Part shown: one piece after another, positions 234 to 22,514 of the stretch
Layout: the number at the start of each line of letters is the position of its first letter
Numbering within the stretch: position 1 is the stretch's first letter
IMG/VR virus record: IMGVR_UViG_3300030329_001771
Location: 1 to 27,897 of that record
Reading direction: 5' to 3' (one strand)
From: a virus
DNA length: 27,897 nucleotides
Position numbers and translations under genes: made by a program
Notes under the pieces: generated by a model
Told to the model about the DNA's origin: nothing
The model's database searches: none
What the model saw: only the letters and a program-made list of their open reading frames with translations

Positions 234-740
234 ATGGCACAAACAGAACTAAGACAATTTTCAGTACAAGAAAAACTCAACAAGATGGATGTTGATTTGA
301 TTGATGTGACACTTACCACAGATGCCGAAGCCCATGCAGACAACGATGTAATTGCACAATCTATAGAAATCCCTGATGCTGTTGCAGTAAATGGTGGATC
401 AGCAATTATCCAATCTATTATGCTATTAGACGAAGATGATGAAGCACCTGCTGTGGATTTAATATTTCAAACAGACAACACAGCGTTAGCATCAGATGAG
501 GGTGAAGTAATAAATATATCAGATGCAAATGCAAGAGATATATTAGGTTTTGTTAATGTATCCAACTGGTCAGACTTAGTTGGTTGTCAAATAGCTGTTA
601 AGTCAAATATTGGGCTTGTTGTAAAGGCTGCATCTGACACGAGAAGCATTTTTGTACACGCAGTAAATAGAAGTGGTGGAACATATACCCCTGCTGCAAC
701 AACTGACCTTAAAATGCGTATCGGCATTGTAAAAGATTGA
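234..740 (+). CDS. Putative particle surface/head decoration protein
   Basis: A 168-residue protein with a good AAGGAG site ahead of ATG 234. It is rich in Asp, Ala, Val, Ile and Thr, has no membrane segment or signal peptide, and reads as an all-beta structural protein. The patterns 'GGSAIIQSIMLLD' and 'NRSGGTYTPAATTDLKMRIGI' resemble structural proteins I recall from uncultured marine siphoviruses, where the type lies just after the capsid gene. That is a family-level memory, not a database match. The context of particle genes supports a head decoration or similar surface role. Its TGA overlaps the ATG of the next gene. Confidence 0.55.
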   Translation: MAQTELRQFSVQEKLNKMDVDLIDVTLTTDAEAHADNDVIAQSIEIPDAVAVNGGSAIIQSIMLLDEDDEAPAVDLIFQTDNTALASDEGEVINISDANARDILGFVNVSNWSDLVGCQIAVKSNIGLVVKAASDTRSIFVHAVNRSGGTYTPAATTDLKMRIGIVKD

Positions 741-1972
741 TGTTTACGACACGTAGAATAACAACAAGTGGTGGCGATAAATTCAGAGATGAGTATTCAT
801 TAGCGTTTGATGGTACTGATGATTATATAGTAACAGGTTTAGCAGGAAGTGCTTTTGATGGTAATTTTACTATCTCTGCTTGGGTTAAAAATGACATAGA
901 AGATATATATCATTCTATATTCTCTCATTATGTGGATGATAATAATTATATTCAATTATATATTCCTAAAAGTTCTGCAACTCACGCAAATAAAGCAATA
1001 TTTAGTGGAACGATAGGTGGAAGTTCTTTATATGTTACAGGTAGTACTGCAATTTTTGCAACAGATGCTTGGGTTCATTTGGTATTCACACAAGATGATG
1101 ATGCTAATGCTCAAGTTATTTATATAAATGCAGTTTCTGATGCCACAGAAACAAGAGATTGGGATATGGATTATGCAGGAACTACTTATATTGGTAGAAA
1201 ATCTCCAAGTGATGCACATATACATCAAGGTAATATATCAGAAATAGCAGTATACGACAAAGCATTATCAGCATCTGAAGTTAAAAGACTATATAATGGT
1301 AGAGAGCCTTATAACCACAAGGAGGGCGTATGCTCATCTAATCTACAAGCGTGGTGGCGTATGGGTGATGGTAGTTCTAATAATAGAAAATTTCAATATA
1401 TAGATAATAGTGCATCATCGGCAGGTAGTAAATTAATAATGTCATCAACATTCGATTCAGATGAAGATGGTTGGGTGGATTATTCTTCAGGAACAGTTGC
1501 ACGAAGTACAGATATATCAAGCCATAGTGGAAGTGCAGGGGTATTAAAATGCACGACTGATACGACAAGCCAATGGCTTGGGAAAACAGCAAACATCACA
1601 TCAGGTATGGAATCAGGGAAAATATATATAGCAGAAGGCTATGTTTACATTCCATCATCGTGGAGTGGAACAAGAGATATATATATATATAGTGCAGATC
1701 AGTTTGGAGATAGTGCAACAAATATAGGTGAACACGATTATAATATAGCACAACACGAAACGAAAGATGAGTGGCAACATATATTCTATACGTTTTTATG
1801 TAAAGAGGATAGTGGTAGTGGTGCAATATATTTAAGGGCAGCAGGTGGTGATAACTTAGAAGATGGTGATTTTGTTTATTTAGATGACTTTAAAATCACA
1901 GAAATAGATAAACTAAATAGTGGTGTTATAATAAATATGGATACTATAAGTTTTGAAGGAGATACGCCTTAA
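740..1972 (+). CDS. LamG (concanavalin A-like) domain structural protein
   Basis: A 410-residue protein. I choose ATG 740, which overlaps the upstream stop as TGATG, over an in-frame TTG at 737. Residues ~15-190 carry the hallmarks of a LamG/Laminin_G_3 jelly roll: 'SLAFDGTDDYIV' at the start, 'FTISAWVK', a central 'WVHLVFTQD', 'YIGRK' and 'ISEIAVYDKALSASEV' at the end. A linker with 'LQAWWRMGDG' follows, then a second beta-rich region (~230-395) ending 'GDFVYLDDFKITEI', which resembles carbohydrate-binding module folds. LamG folds usually bind glycans, so this is probably an exposed particle protein that contacts the host surface or polysaccharide. The next ORF starts in the stop codon (TAATG). 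Confidence 0.75.
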   Translation: MFTTRRITTSGGDKFRDEYSLAFDGTDDYIVTGLAGSAFDGNFTISAWVKNDIEDIYHSIFSHYVDDNNYIQLYIPKSSATHANKAIFSGTIGGSSLYVTGSTAIFATDAWVHLVFTQDDDANAQVIYINAVSDATETRDWDMDYAGTTYIGRKSPSDAHIHQGNISEIAVYDKALSASEVKRLYNGREPYNHKEGVCSSNLQAWWRMGDGSSNNRKFQYIDNSASSAGSKLIMSSTFDSDEDGWVDYSSGTVARSTDISSHSGSAGVLKCTTDTTSQWLGKTANITSGMESGKIYIAEGYVYIPSSWSGTRDIYIYSADQFGDSATNIGEHDYNIAQHETKDEWQHIFYTFLCKEDSGSGAIYLRAAGGDNLEDGDFVYLDDFKITEIDKLNSGVIINMDTISFEGDTP

Positions 1973-11008: not shown

Positions 11009-11415
11009 AACTTCGATTAAATTTACATATTTCGTTAAATGGAGTACAGAAAACACACGCACTTCCGTATGATTTTCCATATAAAGCTATGAATCCTATG
11101 AGTTTGAAGGAAGAAACTTTTAATAGCTTAGATGATGTGTATCAAGTTTTGATCCAATGTTACGATAAATGTATAAACAAGGGAGTGTCAAATTTGGGGA
11201 AAGCATTATACGAACAATCCTTATTCATATGCAATGATGTTTTATTATTAGATAAGGGAAAGCAAAACACTATTAAAAAACACCAATTTTGCAAACAATT
11301 TAATTGCCCCCCATTCCCCTCACTTAATGATACTCCTGCACATATTGTTGATGATTTTATGACCATAGAACAAGAAATGAGAAACATCCAGTTGGGAGAA
11401 CTTAATGACAACTAA
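10996..11415 (+). CDS. Tail assembly chaperone T extension, made only by -1 frameshift
   Basis: This frame has no plausible independent start in its first 90 bases. An ATG at 11089 exists, but the codons from 10996 to 11088 are open and code-like ('EEIKLRLNLHISLNGVQKTHALPYDFPYKA'-type content read as one piece with the downstream part). The fusion would be 82 residues from the short form plus 139 from here, 221 in all, close to what is usual for gpGT proteins. It ends 11 bases inside the tape measure gene. The T part is thought to bind tail tube subunits. Its own composition, Cys- and Lys-containing with helices, fits a soluble adaptor. Confidence 0.78.
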   Translation: MEEIKLRLNLHISLNGVQKTHALPYDFPYKAMNPMSLKEETFNSLDDVYQVLIQCYDKCINKGVSNLGKALYEQSLFICNDVLLLDKGKQNTIKKHQFCKQFNCPPFPSLNDTPAHIVDDFMTIEQEMRNIQLGELNDN

Positions 11416-13237
11416 AAAAAGAATAGATATTGAAGCAAGAACTAAGGGGTTTGACAAGGCGAAGAAGGAATCCAAAGGTCTTAGTAAATCATTAGGTGGG
11501 CTAAAGAAATCATTGATGGGTGCAGCAGCAGGTTATTTTGCAGCACAAGGTTTAATTGCAGGAATAAAAGGCTCACTTGATGCCTATGCACAACAAGAAT
11601 TAGCTGAAAAGAAATTAAGATTTGCTTTGCAAGGCAACACTAAAGCCCTAACAGATCAAGCAGCAGCATTGCAAAGAACAACAACGTTTGGCGACGAAGC
11701 AATTATAACTCAACAAGCATTTCTTGCATCTCTTGGAATGACACAATCACAAATAATGGATATATTACCTGTAGCAGCAGACTTAGCAGCAGCGACAGGT
11801 ATGACACTTGAATCGGCTGTTCGTAATACTGCAAAGACATTTAGTGGATTAGCAGGAGAGTTGGGCGAGTTAGTTCCACAATTAAGGGATTTAACAGCAG
11901 AAGAAATGAAAGCAGGAAAAGCTGTTGAAGTTATGGCTGAATTATTTGGTGGATCTGCAGCAGCAGATGCAGATACATATACAGGATCAATCAAGCAATT
12001 AGGAAATGCTTTTGGAGATTTAAAAGAAAGTATTGGGAAAAGCATTGCACCTGCTGTAAAAAATATTGTTGATGGATTGAAGTCAATGTTTGAACTTACC
12101 GAATCTGAGAACTTACAGAAGCAACAGAAGGAGTTCTTGGCATTAACTGAGATTTTAAGAGATACAACTGTTTCTACAGATACTCGTAAAAGGGCAATGG
12201 AGAGATTAAACAAAGAATATAAACCATATTTACAAAATCTCGACCTTGAAAAGGCAAGTTTAGAAGAAATAGAAGCATTACAAAAGAAAGCAGCAGAAGC
12301 ATTTAATATAAGAATTAGGGAAAAAGTATTAGAGGAAGACATGACTGCTGCTACAGAGGAGAGAATCCAAGCAGAACTGGAATTATTTAGAGCAATATTA
12401 TCAAAACAAGAATCGTATAAGGGCGAAATAGAATTTGGAGATGACTTGTTTGAGATATTGCAAAAAAATCAAGGAATTGAAGATTTTTTAATTAAAGCAG
12501 CAAGGGAAAGACTTGAAACAGCAATCGAAGAAGAACGCCAAGTTAAAAAATCACAAGAATCGTATCTTTCATCAATAGAAACAAAGAAAAAAAACAACAG
12601 TATTCTGCAAACAGAGAAGGAATTTACAGATGCTGTGAATATAGCAAATGAAATATCAGCAGGGTTAAGGAAAAAAACATCTGTTGCTACAGTAGAACAA
12701 ACATTGTCATTGGGAGAAAAGGTAGAGCAGGACAAAGAAGAAATACAAATCGTCAAGCAACAAAACTTACTTCAAAAAATAAGAACGCAATCTCTTGAAG
12801 ATTGGACTGGGATCGCAAAGCAGACCAAGAAGATGGGCTTTATAGATGCACAGGCAGAATGGCAATTAACACTTACTATGGCTATTGTAGATGCAGCAGC
12901 ATCAATGTTAAAAGCAGGTAAAAAGGGTGGCTTAAAGGCAGCATTGGCGATGGGTGCAGTAGCAGCCCCAAATCTTGCAACAATATATGCAAACAAACCA
13001 AAGGTTGCAGCACAGACTGGTTTTGAAGGTGTGATTGATGAGCCAACACAATTCACAGTTGGAGAGGGTGGGGCAGCAGAATATATCTCTGTTCAACCGA
13101 TGGAAGGAGTAAACAATGCAGGTGGAACTGGTGTGACTGTTAATATATCAGGCAATGTAATGACACAAGAATTTGTTGAAGAAGAATTGGCTGACAAGAT
13201 AGCTGAAGCAGTTAGGAAGGGAGTAGCATTTGCGTAA
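11405..13237 (+). CDS. Tail tape measure protein
   Basis: A 610-residue protein with GGGAG before ATG 11405. The N-terminus 'IDIEARTKGFDKAKKESKGL', the hydrophobic Ala/Gly segment at ~36-55, the region 'ALASLGMTQSQI'-like around 105, and long Glu/Lys/Gln-rich helices (~225-440) are typical of tape measure proteins. The C-terminus has 'GFEGVIDEPTQFTVGEGGAAEYI' (~540-560), a conserved closing motif of this family. At about 0.15 nm per residue the tail would be near 90 nm. It sets tail length and may help DNA passage through the cell envelope. A long antisense ORF within it is a shadow. Confidence 0.88.
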   Translation: MTTKKRIDIEARTKGFDKAKKESKGLSKSLGGLKKSLMGAAAGYFAAQGLIAGIKGSLDAYAQQELAEKKLRFALQGNTKALTDQAAALQRTTTFGDEAIITQQAFLASLGMTQSQIMDILPVAADLAAATGMTLESAVRNTAKTFSGLAGELGELVPQLRDLTAEEMKAGKAVEVMAELFGGSAAADADTYTGSIKQLGNAFGDLKESIGKSIAPAVKNIVDGLKSMFELTESENLQKQQKEFLALTEILRDTTVSTDTRKRAMERLNKEYKPYLQNLDLEKASLEEIEALQKKAAEAFNIRIREKVLEEDMTAATEERIQAELELFRAILSKQESYKGEIEFGDDLFEILQKNQGIEDFLIKAARERLETAIEEERQVKKSQESYLSSIETKKKNNSILQTEKEFTDAVNIANEISAGLRKKTSVATVEQTLSLGEKVEQDKEEIQIVKQQNLLQKIRTQSLEDWTGIAKQTKKMGFIDAQAEWQLTLTMAIVDAAASMLKAGKKGGLKAALAMGAVAAPNLATIYANKPKVAAQTGFEGVIDEPTQFTVGEGGAAEYISVQPMEGVNNAGGTGVTVNISGNVMTQEFVEEELADKIAEAVRKGVAFA

Positions 13238-16200
13238 TATCTTCGGATCAGGAGAAGGGATAAAACCATCCCCAGTTACTAATATAGCATATCGTGTTTT
13301 TATATATGCCAATAATTCCAATCAAGACCATGTTGAAATCACGGATAGGGATATACCACATGGAGATGTTGATTTAAAGGTTTCAACAATAACAAATAAG
13401 ATAGATGTAAAAAACAAAAACATACATTTGCCTGACATTAGTATTTCTGCCAACAATTATCCAGTATATATAGATGACGACACAGGAGAAGAAAAAAGAT
13501 TGTCTGACATTCTTTTGGGTGGTATTGGTAGAAGGATTAAAGTAAGTATGCGATGGGGTAGAGATATGACTTCATCTATGACGATAGCAGAGGGAAGAAT
13601 ATCAAGAATACAACATGACGATAACAGAATTAACATTAGTGCAAATAATGTTCATTTAGAGGACTTTCATTTAGATTTGCCACAGCCTGAGTATGTTCTA
13701 AATAAAGATGTAAACACATATGAGCATTATCACGACAGACCAGTACCAATATTATATGGACATCTAAAACAAGCACCATCCCCTGTATATTTAAATAGGG
13801 TGGGAGAAAGTTCAGTAATAACGAATCAAACAATAAAATTATTGCCTGACAACTCAGATATTGGTGGATCTAACATTCATGGAATAAAAAAGTTTGAACC
13901 CATGTTGTTCGCAGGAATTAACACAGATTTAATTGAATTAAAAAGACAAGACAATGTTGGGGTAAAAATAGGAGATAATGTTTGCGATGTGCCTTGTTTG
14001 CCTTATGTTCAAACTCGTTCTATGATATTAGATGATGACCATGATTATCAACAATGGAGTACGAGTGGCAAAGATTATTTATCATTTAATGTGATCGATG
14101 ATGATGGCACTAAAACGCACATTAGAGATGATAAGATATGGTGTAGCTTCAATCAAAAACCAAATCCTAATCCTGATGACAAAAGAACATTTTATGTAGA
14201 AAATAACAACACGACATATGTTTCATCTCCATATTCATATGAAATAAAAGATATAACTGATTCATTTAAGACTTCTAACAATAGTAGATATGCTTATCGT
14301 GTTGGGGTGCAAACATTTGAGTTTGATCCCATATCAGGATATAAAACCGATGACAGATTGAAAGACGATGGAAGTCGAAAAATACATTCAGATGTACATT
14401 TTATAGGAAGTGCTAATATCTTACAGAAAAATTTTGGTGGTTCTCAAAAACAATTCCATTCATACACTTGGATGTTTCCTGTATATTCTGCTCCAAACTT
14501 AGAAGGGCAATCAGGTTCAGGTGGTCAAGAAACAGACCTTGAATATTTTGACAAACTTGCGTTCCCAAAAGAACTACACAAATTAGAAAGAAGCAATGGT
14601 AGTAGGCAAATAAGAGGAACACAAACGTGGGATTTAGATAGTTTTTACGAGGACATCACAAGGGCATATTTTAGGATGTTTGGGTTTTCTGAACATCAAG
14701 ATGACGAACAATTTAATAGCTATTTTACATCATTCATATCAGGTCGGTTTAACCAAAATTCACTTAATAACTTCGAGTCAAGATACCAAGCAGGATTTAG
14801 AAACTTGTATCCAATACTTGATGCCACAAGTTTGGCAATATATTATTTTGCAGATGCAGCTTCAAGTTCAAGTAGCAATAGCCCCTTTGTAATGTTTGAC
14901 ATAGAAGCACAATGGAGAGATCTTGAACTTAGAAAAGTGTGGCTTAATATGGATATGTTTGAAAAGGACTATTTCTTAAATGCCAAAGGCAAAGTTTATG
15001 GAGAAGAAAGGGATGTGTGGGATATTAATGGAAGTTTAACTATTAAGTATGAGGGTGTAGATGCTCCTGACCTTTCTAACAATGCTGCAAGTTCTGCTAA
15101 AAAAGATAACTTACATTTCACAGAATTATATAAATATTTAACAGACGAAGATTTAAAATCAAGATTAATTGGGAATAAGTATTATGAAATTATGCTAATG
15201 TGTGACGATGGAGATGAACCATCTTTTTTATATGATATAGAAATAAATAATATGAAGTTTTGCGATGGATTCTTGCCATATATGTGGAACAATGGTTCTG
15301 ATCCATATGTTGTCGATGGGGAATATGTAGGTCATAGTACAGGGTGGCTTGTTTCATTTAATTCCAAACAATTTGGTAAATCACATTCATATCAATCAAG
15401 TGGTAATTATATGCTAACTGGTGTTCGTTTAGTATATGGAAGAAAAAAATATGGATATGAAGGTAATGTTTTAACATTGCAAGAAATTGAATATCAAGAA
15501 GCAGAGGAACTCGCTACGTTTAATGACAACAATGGCTACGAGTTTGGCGACCAAACAGATGACTTATGGCGACCACATGGATATACTCTTGTTTCCTATT
15601 TGGGTGGGAATAGAACAAGTTCAGAGAGGTTGCTTGAAAATCCTGCAGAAATAATTAAAGACCTACTAAATACACAGGCAGAAAGTGATGTTGATTTCAA
15701 CGATGATAAATTCGAAAGGTCAGTAATCGCAACACAAGATGACAAGTTTGCATTTTCAATAAATAAGACAGAGAATATTAAAGATATAATAAACAATATT
15801 TTGAAAGAGTCAAGATTGTATTTGGGTTGGAATTGGAATCAGGAATTGGTAATCCATCACATAAAAGATGAATATAATGACAATGATGTAGATGGTGTCA
15901 TAGATGTAGATAATATTTATAATTGCAAGTTTAATTTAAGTAATATTGAAGATTTGGCAATCGGAGGGGTGGAAGTTAAGTATGGATACAATTATGCAAC
16001 AGAAAAGTTCGACAAAACAACCGATCCCATAACATTAGGGTATTTCACAGAACACTACAAGCAAGAATATGGCATAGAAAACGAAGATGATTACAAACTT
16101 GTTTTTGAGTCTAAATACATACAAGACAAAGGAACAGCAGAGCATTTAAGAAACTATTTATTTCATAGCAAGAAACATCAGCAACTTACTTGTAGCTTTG

Positions 16201-17249
16201 ATGCTCCCCTATCTGAGGTTTTTGAATATGAGGTTGGGGATATAATTATGTTTAGTGACAATCCTAAGAACACAAAGCCATATGGTAGAGATATAAAAGA
16301 GGTATATACAAACATAGATCAAACAATATATCCCTATTTTTTAATTACAAAAACAACTTTAAAGGGCAGGAGAATTTCTATCGAAGCTATGCAACTAAGA
16401 AACTTAGATGTAACAGAGATACCTGCAACACTCTTGGGAGATGTAAATCTTGATAACCAAGTTACTTGGGATGATGCCTTGCAATTAAATGAAATGTTGT
16501 TTTTTCATGGCAACAATCTTGATTATTACTATAGCCCACAACAAATTTCAAACGCAGATATGAATCAAGATGGGAATATAGACGTATTTGACCTAATTGA
16601 TCTTATAGATATTTTAGAAGAACCATATGATGATGGAGAATATGTAGATTTTGCAAGTGGAATATATCAGTCATCTACTGATGAGTTATATTTAACAGAA
16701 AATCAGATTGAAACTGACGATGTTTATGGCATGTTAGGGTTGCAACCATACAACACAAGTATTGTTTATTATGTAACAAGTAATTTGAATTGTGTTAGAA
16801 GCGATAGTGCAATCGCATCATTAATACAAGACCAACTTGGTTCTAATCCCTTTGATAGAAATCCAAGATCTTGGGGGGAAGTTGCAAAGCAAATGCAGAG
16901 TACAGGTTCTTCCTTTAACATTATGAATCAATATGTAAAATTAAAGGTATCTTTGGTAAGTGGGGCTAATATTGATCCATTAGAAGAATCCACAGCAAAT
17001 AAAATGCTTATATTCAATAACTGCTTGTTTAAATTTGATGGGCGACACTCATGGGAAACTTATGTTGGGATAAAACTTCTAAAGGATGGGGCATTATCTC
17101 CAAGTGGAAACGAGATAATATGGAATAGTAGTTATCAATGTACAATAGATGGACAGATGTACACCTATGGGTATGTTTCAATCGGTGATCCAATCGCAAA
17201 AAAAATAAACTTTGCAATAGAAGTTCCTGACAATTATTGGGAGGAGTAG
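13230..17249 (+). CDS. Large tail tip/hub protein with dockerin-like calcium repeats
   Basis: A 1339-residue protein starting with TTG 13230, eight bases inside the end of the tape measure gene and preceded by GGGAG. The N-terminal ~140 residues and the segment at ~870-1065 ('IKDIINNILKESRLYLGWNW', 'KYIQDKGTAEHLRNYLFH', 'FEYEVGDIIMFSDN', 'YPYFLITKT') resemble hub-type tail proteins of siphoviruses. Residues 1070-1130 carry two calcium-loop repeats, 'GDVNLDNQVTWDD' (Asp1071, Asn1073, Asp1075, Asp1082) and 'ADMNQDGNIDVFD' (Asp1110, Asn1112, Asp1114, Asn1116, Asp1121), each followed by a helix, as in type I dockerins. About 200 residues follow. It probably forms the tail tip that contacts the host. 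Confidence 0.75.
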   Translation: MRNIFGSGEGIKPSPVTNIAYRVFIYANNSNQDHVEITDRDIPHGDVDLKVSTITNKIDVKNKNIHLPDISISANNYPVYIDDDTGEEKRLSDILLGGIGRRIKVSMRWGRDMTSSMTIAEGRISRIQHDDNRINISANNVHLEDFHLDLPQPEYVLNKDVNTYEHYHDRPVPILYGHLKQAPSPVYLNRVGESSVITNQTIKLLPDNSDIGGSNIHGIKKFEPMLFAGINTDLIELKRQDNVGVKIGDNVCDVPCLPYVQTRSMILDDDHDYQQWSTSGKDYLSFNVIDDDGTKTHIRDDKIWCSFNQKPNPNPDDKRTFYVENNNTTYVSSPYSYEIKDITDSFKTSNNSRYAYRVGVQTFEFDPISGYKTDDRLKDDGSRKIHSDVHFIGSANILQKNFGGSQKQFHSYTWMFPVYSAPNLEGQSGSGGQETDLEYFDKLAFPKELHKLERSNGSRQIRGTQTWDLDSFYEDITRAYFRMFGFSEHQDDEQFNSYFTSFISGRFNQNSLNNFESRYQAGFRNLYPILDATSLAIYYFADAASSSSSNSPFVMFDIEAQWRDLELRKVWLNMDMFEKDYFLNAKGKVYGEERDVWDINGSLTIKYEGVDAPDLSNNAASSAKKDNLHFTELYKYLTDEDLKSRLIGNKYYEIMLMCDDGDEPSFLYDIEINNMKFCDGFLPYMWNNGSDPYVVDGEYVGHSTGWLVSFNSKQFGKSHSYQSSGNYMLTGVRLVYGRKKYGYEGNVLTLQEIEYQEAEELATFNDNNGYEFGDQTDDLWRPHGYTLVSYLGGNRTSSERLLENPAEIIKDLLNTQAESDVDFNDDKFERSVIATQDDKFAFSINKTENIKDIINNILKESRLYLGWNWNQELVIHHIKDEYNDNDVDGVIDVDNIYNCKFNLSNIEDLAIGGVEVKYGYNYATEKFDKTTDPITLGYFTEHYKQEYGIENEDDYKLVFESKYIQDKGTAEHLRNYLFHSKKHQQLTCSFDAPLSEVFEYEVGDIIMFSDNPKNTKPYGRDIKEVYTNIDQTIYPYFLITKTTLKGRRISIEAMQLRNLDVTEIPATLLGDVNLDNQVTWDDALQLNEMLFFHGNNLDYYYSPQQISNADMNQDGNIDVFDLIDLIDILEEPYDDGEYVDFASGIYQSSTDELYLTENQIETDDVYGMLGLQPYNTSIVYYVTSNLNCVRSDSAIASLIQDQLGSNPFDRNPRSWGEVAKQMQSTGSSFNIMNQYVKLKVSLVSGANIDPLEESTANKMLIFNNCLFKFDGRHSWETYVGIKLLKDGALSPSGNEIIWNSSYQCTIDGQMYTYGYVSIGDPIAKKINFAIEVPDNYWEE

Positions 17250-17669
17250 ATGAACATTAAAATGAAACAATATGTCAATGAAGTATATCTTGAAAATTTC
17301 AAGGACATGGTGTATTTAGATATAACGTGTGAAGGTAGCTTTGATATTCAGATGGAAGCAGATGGCTATGTATGGGGCAATTCTAATAGAATTGTAGTCA
17401 CGCATATAACAATGCCCCAATCAGGACTTTTATTCACTTATACAGGCGATTTAAGGATAGTGCAAGTAACAATGGGAGATGTGTATAAACAGAAACATTT
17501 CGTGCAAAATAAAAGAATTACAGATGAAGTCCAAGCTATAGAATCAATTTGGAGTTTGGACACATCGAGATATGAAGATTATGATCAATCCAACAAAGGC
17601 AAGGATATAGGTATTACTAAAGTTAAGACAAAGGTTGGATCTAAGAAAACAGCAAATATAAATAATTAA
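17250..17669 (+). CDS. Small tail-region protein, hypothetical
   Basis: A 139-residue protein; ATG 17250 follows the previous stop with no gap and has a GGAGGAG site. It is beta-rich up to residue ~85 ('FKDMVYLDITCEGSFDIQM', 'GDLRIVQVTMGD') with a Lys-rich, probably flexible C-terminus ('KVKTKVGSKKTANINN'). There is no membrane segment. It lies between the tail tip gene and another tail protein, so it is likely a tip or baseplate component or an assembly factor. I recognise no named family. Confidence 0.65.
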   Translation: MNIKMKQYVNEVYLENFKDMVYLDITCEGSFDIQMEADGYVWGNSNRIVVTHITMPQSGLLFTYTGDLRIVQVTMGDVYKQKHFVQNKRITDEVQAIESIWSLDTSRYEDYDQSNKGKDIGITKVKTKVGSKKTANINN

Positions 17670-20673: not shown

Positions 20674-21537
20674 ATGAATGTTTTAAGTTTATTTAATGGA
20701 ATGAGTACAGGGCACACCGCATTGGATAATGTTGGAATTAAAGTCGATAAATATTATTCATCTGAAATTAAACCTGCTGCCATAAAATTAACACAACACC
20801 ATTATCCTGATACTATTCAACTTGGAGATGTAACTAAATGGAAAGAATGGGATATTGATTGGAAGTCAATAGATATGGTGCTTAGTGGTAGTCCTTGTCA
20901 AGATTTATCCATAGCAGGGGCAAAAACACAAAGAATGGGTTTAGAGGGTAGTAGAAGTAGTCTTTTTTGGGTGTTTGTAGATATATTAAATCAAATAAAA
21001 AAATTGAATCCAAATGTTTTGTTTTTACAAGAAAATGTAGGTTCTGCACCTAAAAAAGATGTAGGAATTATGTCAAGAGCATTAGGCGTATATCCAGTTA
21101 GAATTAACTCTAAATTAGTGACTGCACAATTAAGAGATAGATATTATTGGACAAATATAAAAACAAAAAAAGATGGTTTGTTTGGTGACATTGTAAGCGA
21201 CATACCATTACCAAAAAATAAAAATATATTATTGCAAGATGTTTTGACAAGTGGTGTTGCACAAAAACAAAAACATTGTTGTTTGACAACCAAGTCTGGC
21301 GACCAATCTGACAATCAACAATATTTAAAACACAGAGATAACACAACAGGGATGATTACTCTTATATATGAAGAAGATAAGGTTAGAACTGCAAATAAAA
21401 TTGAATTATGTAGATTGCAAGGTTTTGATGATAATTGGTGTGATATATTAACTACAAGACAAGCAGGTAACCTGTTAGGGGATGGTTGGACATTGCCAAT
21501 CATAGAACACATATTTAGTTTTATAAAAAAGGATTAA
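20674..21537 (+). CDS. DNA (cytosine-5) methyltransferase
   Basis: A 287-residue protein carrying the C5 methyltransferase motifs in order: I 'SLFNGMSTG' (5-13, AdoMet binding), IV 'GSPCQD' with catalytic Cys75, VI 'ENV' (120-122), VIII 'QLRDRYYW' (152-159), IX 'RLQGF' (247-251) and X 'GNLLGDGW' (265-272). The start 'NGMSTG' and the short target domain are typical of the small phage type related to DNMT3-like enzymes. It methylates cytosine in DNA, and with no restriction enzyme nearby it probably protects phage DNA from host nucleases. Its target sequence is unknown. The start is ATG 20674, two bases after the preceding stop. Confidence 0.92.
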   Translation: MNVLSLFNGMSTGHTALDNVGIKVDKYYSSEIKPAAIKLTQHHYPDTIQLGDVTKWKEWDIDWKSIDMVLSGSPCQDLSIAGAKTQRMGLEGSRSSLFWVFVDILNQIKKLNPNVLFLQENVGSAPKKDVGIMSRALGVYPVRINSKLVTAQLRDRYYWTNIKTKKDGLFGDIVSDIPLPKNKNILLQDVLTSGVAQKQKHCCLTTKSGDQSDNQQYLKHRDNTTGMITLIYEEDKVRTANKIELCRLQGFDDNWCDILTTRQAGNLLGDGWTLPIIEHIFSFIKKD

Positions 21538-21656: not shown

Positions 21657-22514
21657 ATGGCACGAAATAGAATAATAAAAAAAGAGTTTTACACAGATCA
21701 GAAGATGATTGAACTCGACATTGTAGAAAGATTGTTATTTATAGGGATGACAAACTTCGCAGATGACACAGGTATCCATATTAATAGTGCAAAGATGTTG
21801 AAGGCAGAGATATTACCTGCTGATGAAATAAGCATTGATTACATAGAAGAAGCACTAAGTAATATGCACAAGTTAGGGTTAATTGAGTATAATGAAGATA
21901 GGTCATTATTTAGGATCACAAATTTTCTAATACATCAAAAAATCAATAGACCATATCCATCTAAGTATGAGTTTGTCGAGGAGAGTGAAACTGATTCAAT
22001 GAACATTCATGGAACATTCAATGAGTGTTCATCCCCTAATAAGAATAATAATAAGAAAAAGAATAATAAGAATAAAAAGAAAAAGAAAGATAATGAGAAC
22101 TCTGATTTTTTAGTTTGGTGGGAAATGTATCCAAGAAAGATCGGAAAGCCAAAAGCACAAGCTAAGTTTGAGGAAATGGTTACTATTTATTCGCTAAGAG
22201 AAGTTATTGAGGGAACTATATTGTGGAAGGATTACTGGAAGAACGCACATACAGAAACAAAGTACATACCACATCCAACTACATTTTTAAATCAACATCG
22301 TTTTATGGACTATCCTGATGAATTAGAATCTCAGATAGAGGTAGAATACAGATTAGACACTACAGGCAAGTTTTATATTGGATATTGTGCTAAGTGTCAG
22401 AAATCTAATTTCTATAGAAAAGAGGAACTAAGACAAGATTCAAGATGTTGTAAAGATAAGATATTGCCACAAAGAGATGCAATAGAGATTCAGGATGTAA
22501 ATGCAAAAGCATAA
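21657..22514 (+). CDS. Replication initiation protein (winged-helix, DnaD/O-like)
   Basis: A 285-residue protein with AAAAGGAG before ATG 21657. Residues 1-~110 form a winged-helix region with the phage replication pattern 'IVERLLFIGMTNFADDTG', 'LSNMHKLGLIEY' and 'LIHQKINRPYPSKYEF'. A Lys/Asn linker follows (~125-147). Residues ~148-220 hold 'VWWEMYPRKIGKPKAQAKFEEM' and 'YIPHPTTFLNQHRFMD', a C-terminal block common in phage replication organisers. A cysteine cluster (C-x2-C, then CC) ends the protein. It would bind the origin and recruit host replication enzymes; no DNA polymerase or helicase is present in the window. The origin itself was not located. Confidence 0.78.
   Translation: MARNRIIKKEFYTDQKMIELDIVERLLFIGMTNFADDTGIHINSAKMLKAEILPADEISIDYIEEALSNMHKLGLIEYNEDRSLFRITNFLIHQKINRPYPSKYEFVEESETDSMNIHGTFNECSSPNKNNNKKKNNKNKKKKKDNENSDFLVWWEMYPRKIGKPKAQAKFEEMVTIYSLREVIEGTILWKDYWKNAHTETKYIPHPTTFLNQHRFMDYPDELESQIEVEYRLDTTGKFYIGYCAKCQKSNFYRKEELRQDSRCCKDKILPQRDAIEIQDVNAKA

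Follow-up and report, generated by a model that had tools for sequence, protein, structure and literature searches.

The dockerin is the plug half of the plug-and-socket system of cellulosomes; besides cellulosomes, secreted proteins of bacteria and archaea are known to contain it. Type I dockerins (PF00404), such as those of C. thermocellum (1OHZ, 2CCL), consist of two duplicated F-hand calcium loops with helices over about 60 residues, with an NADxNxDG link between the repeats and, in C. thermocellum, Ser-Thr at loop positions 10-11, and belong to secreted enzymes. In secreted and surface proteins of bacteria and archaea outside cellulosomes, dockerins stand at or near the C terminus, have hydrophobic or variable contact positions and sometimes occur with Ig-like domains and GCTDPxATNYNPDA repeats.

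The papers searched contained no description of a dockerin in a phage tail tip. Two phage papers have only the word in common with the present case: for gene 40 of VvAW1, "dockerin" comes up in a BLAST remark, the gene being considered there as a possible attP site (PMC3558961), and for Gp02 of the Escherichia coli phage HSE2, which is not a demonstrated dockerin, the cited template was called a dockerin carbohydrate-binding module (2WZ8; PMC5967307). Here, we describe a dockerin in the tail-tip protein encoded by a 27,897-nucleotide stretch of viral DNA (IMG/VR record IMGVR_UViG_3300030329_001771, positions 1 to 27,897; hereafter the window), where this known module had not been met in the papers searched.

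Results

The tail-tip gene and its setting

The gene preceding the tail-tip ORF (11405-13237) encodes the tape measure protein (PHROG match, PHROG 28). Since the tail-tip ORF lies directly 3′ of it, its product occupies the place of the siphophage tail-tip protein, as in lambda, T5, Chi, and T1. The hub of this protein is conserved in the alignment of all relatives and matched no Pfam or PHROG family. Using VIA-align, we obtained weak matches of its last domain to the tail-tip proteins of lambda, T1, Chi, and T5 (Z 4.0-4.8), including lambda gpJ (8iyk_F; Z 4.8, rmsd 2.0 over 56 aa). The gene position agrees with the sequence-only reading, which had taken the product for a tail-tip protein. In contrast to the lambda, T5, Chi, and T1 tips, the present protein has a dockerin after the hub, and the known fibre domains of lambda-type tips were not found there.

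Table 1. Positions in the window of the tail-tip gene, its parts and the two genes that follow
Feature	Position	Strand	Basis or remark
Tail-tip (gpJ-like hub) protein	13230..17249	+	1339 aa, TTG start; ORF
Last conserved hub domain	16173..16406	+	directly 5′ of dockerin; hub alignment of relatives
Dockerin module, residues 1069-1132	16434..16625	+	PF00404, AF2 and PDB fold; kept in 28 related loci
Calcium loop 1, DVNLDNQVTWDD, residues 1071-1082	16440..16475	+	ligand positions D1 N3 D5 D12
Calcium loop 2, DMNQDGNIDVFD, residues 1110-1121	16557..16592	+	ligand positions D1 N3 D5 D12
C-terminal region of about 207 aa after dockerin, candidate distal tip	16626..17246	+	low AF2 pLDDT
Family c1, 139 aa, possible dockerin partner	17250..17669	+	synteny; predicted beta-sandwich, cohesin/CBM2-like
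Family c0, 332 aa	17678..18676	+	next downstream in all loci; control for co-variation

The region between the dockerin and the end of the protein had no phmmer match at E≤0.01 among the other tail-tip extensions, and the equivalent regions of the relatives are fast-evolving. Homology of the last ~200 residues to the C termini of relatives had been considered by eye from shared ...NYWE ends; phmmer gave no support for it, and AF2 modelled this part poorly. A search for isolated phages with a related tail tip or related dockerins found none. Elsewhere in the window, positions 737-1972 (+) encode a 411-aa protein that combines a LamG/ConA-like lectin domain with a CBM_4_9 carbohydrate-binding domain; it may be an adhesin or a fibre and has one relative (L002, 62% identity). 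In addition, a C-5 cytosine DNA methylase gene (20674-21537, +) is followed by a DnaD/replication-initiation-like gene (21657-22514).

A dockerin module directly behind the hub

The two calcium loops that the sequence-only reading had described in this protein are present at the positions given in Table 1; both are complete, and their ligand columns are conserved in relatives. In shuffled copies of the tail-tip protein, a strict calcium loop occurred at a rate of 0.005 per copy, and a pair within 60 aa was never found in 20,000 shuffles. The Pfam profile PF00404 (Dockerin_1) matched in a six-frame search with 25.7 bits (E 3.6e-7; cut-off 22.9). Its score was exactly at the curated cut-off (22.9 bits) when the whole tail-tip protein was searched and 23.6 bits with the C-terminal piece alone.

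We also modelled the tail-tip protein using AF2 with 15 alignment rows. The model was poor overall and good over the dockerin module (block-mean pLDDT about 67-90), where it showed the dockerin-type topology of two loop/helix units. Foldseek ranked two C. thermocellum dockerins first among the PDB matches of the module, and the top 21 rows from VIA-align were all dockerins, the best being a C. thermocellum dockerin (Z 11.2, 1.9 A, 62 residues). Profile and structure prediction thus agree on paired calcium sites in a type-I-like layout, as had been proposed, and residues 1069-1132 are a true dockerin module. It shares with the C. thermocellum type I dockerins the fold, the duplicated loops, and the NADxNxDG motif (26% identity); it differs from them in a longer inter-repeat link and in having WD and VF, respectively, at loop positions 10-11, as well as in residing in a phage tail-tip protein rather than in a secreted enzyme. 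By analogy, the tail-tip dockerins would each bind two calcium ions and fold only with calcium.

Dockerins throughout a lineage of uncultured phages

Relatives were collected from the same IMG/VR collection by a terminase search (18 loci) and a tail-tip alignment search (42 loci), and each tail tip, some being near-copies, was cut where the conserved hub ends. The hub end was visible in 39 tail tips, three of which ran off the contig without an answer, leaving 36 informative. A dockerin was detected in 29 of these (one to four each; one cut off after its first loop) with an HMM seeded with 11 of the loci, and the other seven were complete tail tips without one. The independent count with Pfam Dockerin_1 alone was 24 of 35 extensions, with a best E value of 1.3e-28. 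The loops are therefore not peculiar to the present phage, and when the records were searched whole, dockerin matches were found in the tail-tip frame only.

The dockerins either follow the gpJ-like hub without a gap or form the very C terminus. In ten rows of the tree the dockerin is the end of the protein, while many relatives have an internal dockerin followed by 100-500 aa. Tandem copies inside the protein, amounting to 2 to 4 pairs, were seen in L078-L080, L083, L085-L087, and L094-L096; eight tree rows contain two pairs and two contain three or more. The tail tips of L078 and L086 carry three to four tandem pairs in one protein.

Because dockerins are found in all main clades of the hub tree and their absence requires several changes, the simplest reading is an early gain with loss in some branches, the details being unsure as several branches are long. 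Five members of the main lineage (L068, L082, L084, L091, and L093) have no dockerin, indicating that it is not indispensable. The dockerin is nevertheless a lineage-wide tail-tip component of an uncultured siphophage-like group, positioned at the point where the hub gives way to the central tail fibre. The longer of the related contigs measure about 18-37 kb; judging from the sample numbers, most of the contigs are presumably marine, and the group is probably marine. Whereas the non-cellulosomal dockerins of cellular organisms resemble the phage modules in their C-terminal placement and their contact positions, the phage modules are fused to a tail hub, common to a viral lineage, and diversified within it.

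Selection on the dockerins and their exchange

Pairwise identity among 18 aligned dockerins was 83% in the eight ligand columns, 26% in all others, and 12% at the cohesin-contact positions, taken as in type I dockerins generally. In most pairs, dN/dS was 0.28-0.43 for the dockerin; the hub gave 0.11-0.28 and the remaining C-terminal part 0.21-0.83. The pair L067/L072 had six nonsynonymous and no synonymous changes. These comparisons show that the calcium ligands and the module as a whole are under purifying selection. In two pairs, dS jumped at the dockerin, rising from 0.06 at the hub to 0.64 at the dockerin in L071/L075 and falling from 0.35 to 0.03 in L064/L065, indicating that the dockerins have been swapped as units by recombination. 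L099, L075, and L064 have near-symmetric loop pairs, like dockerins that bind a partner.

The neighbouring genes c1 and c0

A small gene of the family c1 (126-191 aa) lies directly 3′ of the tail tip in 32 of 34 loci. Its product yielded a confident AF2 core (block-mean pLDDT 75-89 over the first 90 residues and 80-89 in the core), for which the first 11 PDB matches from Foldseek were all cohesins (E 6.5e-3, TM ~0.4). The best VIA match, an archaeal cohesin at Z 8.0, scored no higher than a CBM-like domain from a GH20 enzyme, and the tool warns that a Z under 8 may reflect nothing beyond a common arrangement. No credible Pfam or PHROG family was found for c1; cohesin profiles gave nothing at E≤1, and hhalign returned a probability of 0.1% against 20 cohesins. 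An HMM search of eight phage records likewise found no cohesins. Pfam, PDB-profile, and profile-profile comparisons thus ruled out c1 as a cohesin at the sequence level: it is like the cohesins (PF00963) in its predicted beta-sandwich and in their top Foldseek ranks, but it has no sequence similarity to them, its core is shorter, and CBM2-like domains are equally close.

After control for the hub, dockerin distances co-varied with c1 distances (partial r 0.215, p 0.002), whereas dockerin-c0 distances did not (0.056, p 0.17). Downstream of the tail tip, L071/L077 have two tandem copies of the c0 tail gene (504 and 402 aa). In BFVD, c1-like folds appear in several unnamed viral proteins, including A0A516LNX3 (1389 aa), a possible fusion of c1 with a tail tip that, if true, would support a physical association of the two.

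Clues to the host

A clearly related terminase was found in a single cellular genome, a MAG labelled Cloacimonadota. Of its two terminase matches, one is a fragment at 55% and the other is longer; both lie at contig ends, and no tail relative was found in this MAG, so it does not amount to a host assignment. Against phages of cultured hosts, mostly enterobacterial, the terminase reached just ~31% and therefore gives no clue to the host. For SAR406/Marinimicrobia as a candidate host, no supporting paper was found in the literature searched.

Of 125 genomes from the Cloacimonadota phylum, 60 contained cohesins above the cut-off, which makes a cohesin-bearing host no more than plausible. One genome of this phylum contains dockerins, cohesins, and GCTDPxATNYNPDA repeats together. 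In L065, L066, L071, L075, and L079, GCTDPxATNYNPDAxxDDxSC repeats, which also occur in Cloacimonadota-phylum genomes, lie between the hub and the dockerin; they may represent host-like surface-protein modules in a phage tail. In some relatives, such repeats and an Ig-like domain precede a terminal dockerin, and L065, L071, L075, and L079 in this respect resemble the non-cellulosomal dockerin proteins of cells.

Discussion

We infer that the dockerin folds with calcium and serves the distal tail tip as a docking module that can be exchanged. Most likely facing outward, it would anchor the tip to a host-surface protein, cohesin-like or other, and so mimic how the host's own secreted proteins plug in; in phages such as the present one, the C-terminal domain beyond the dockerin would probably share the recognition role. 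We favour docking to a host-surface protein, to which we give somewhat less than an even chance, because nothing lies beyond the dockerin in ten tree rows and because the dockerins have been exchanged and diversified like host-range parts. The host-like repeats and Ig-like domain that accompany a terminal dockerin in some relatives, and the Cloacimonadota-phylum genome that combines such repeats with dockerins and cohesins, also speak for it. The divergence of the contact positions and the raised dN/dS, however, would also fit a spacer under relaxed constraint, and the internal tandem copies look as much like a stalk as like a docking site. A serious rival, which we rank below a host partner and consider rather unlikely, is a calcium-stabilised spacer or hinge that has kept the fold, has lost its specific partner, and separates the hub from the C-terminal tip, its copy number setting the length. 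The long stretches behind many internal dockerins, the arrays of two to four pairs, the retention of calcium ligands beside poorly conserved contact positions, and the intermediate dN/dS are all consistent with such a spacer. Yet at least ten relatives end in the dockerin and have nothing to space, the modules are swapped as intact units, and the near-symmetric loop pairs resemble those of dockerins that bind a partner.

The partner may instead be encoded by the phage: c1, with a cohesin fold, would plug into the tail-tip dockerin within the virion, carrying or capping the tip. We regard this as improbable, and more doubtful still is a phage lineage with a virion cohesin-dockerin system of its own, in which c1 would be a diverged cohesin and the tail tip an exchangeable plug-and-socket assembly. 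The adjacency of c1 in 32 of 34 loci, its structural matches, and its co-variation with the dockerin beyond the hub, which the next gene does not share, argue for a phage-encoded pair, as do the joint movement of dockerin and c1 in L064/L065 and the absence of a dockerin from the only loci without c1 (L100 and L101). On the other hand, c1 is kept in the five dockerin-less members of the main lineage, its Z of 8 is at noise level and shared with CBM-like domains, cohesin sequence similarity is absent, and the co-variation could stem from physical linkage. In addition, the c1 genes of L071 and L075 are near-identical (one nonsynonymous change in 150 codons) though the dockerins differ. That a fragment of a host dockerin gene was captured recently by accident and plays no role is very improbable: similar modules do occur in cellular genomes, and the jump in divergence at the module boundary does reveal exchange, but conservation of the dockerin across all main clades largely refutes such a capture, and the purifying selection on the ligands and the whole module also stands against it.

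The tail-tip dockerins suggest that these phages use plug-and-socket docking in attachment. Either cohesins on uncultured hosts would be phage receptors, a new receptor class usable for finding hosts, or virions would use plug-and-socket assembly, and both possibilities are open to test on soluble domains as small as about 65 and 140 aa, making phage culture unnecessary. The dockerin may also serve as a sequence tag for linking this viral lineage to its hosts.
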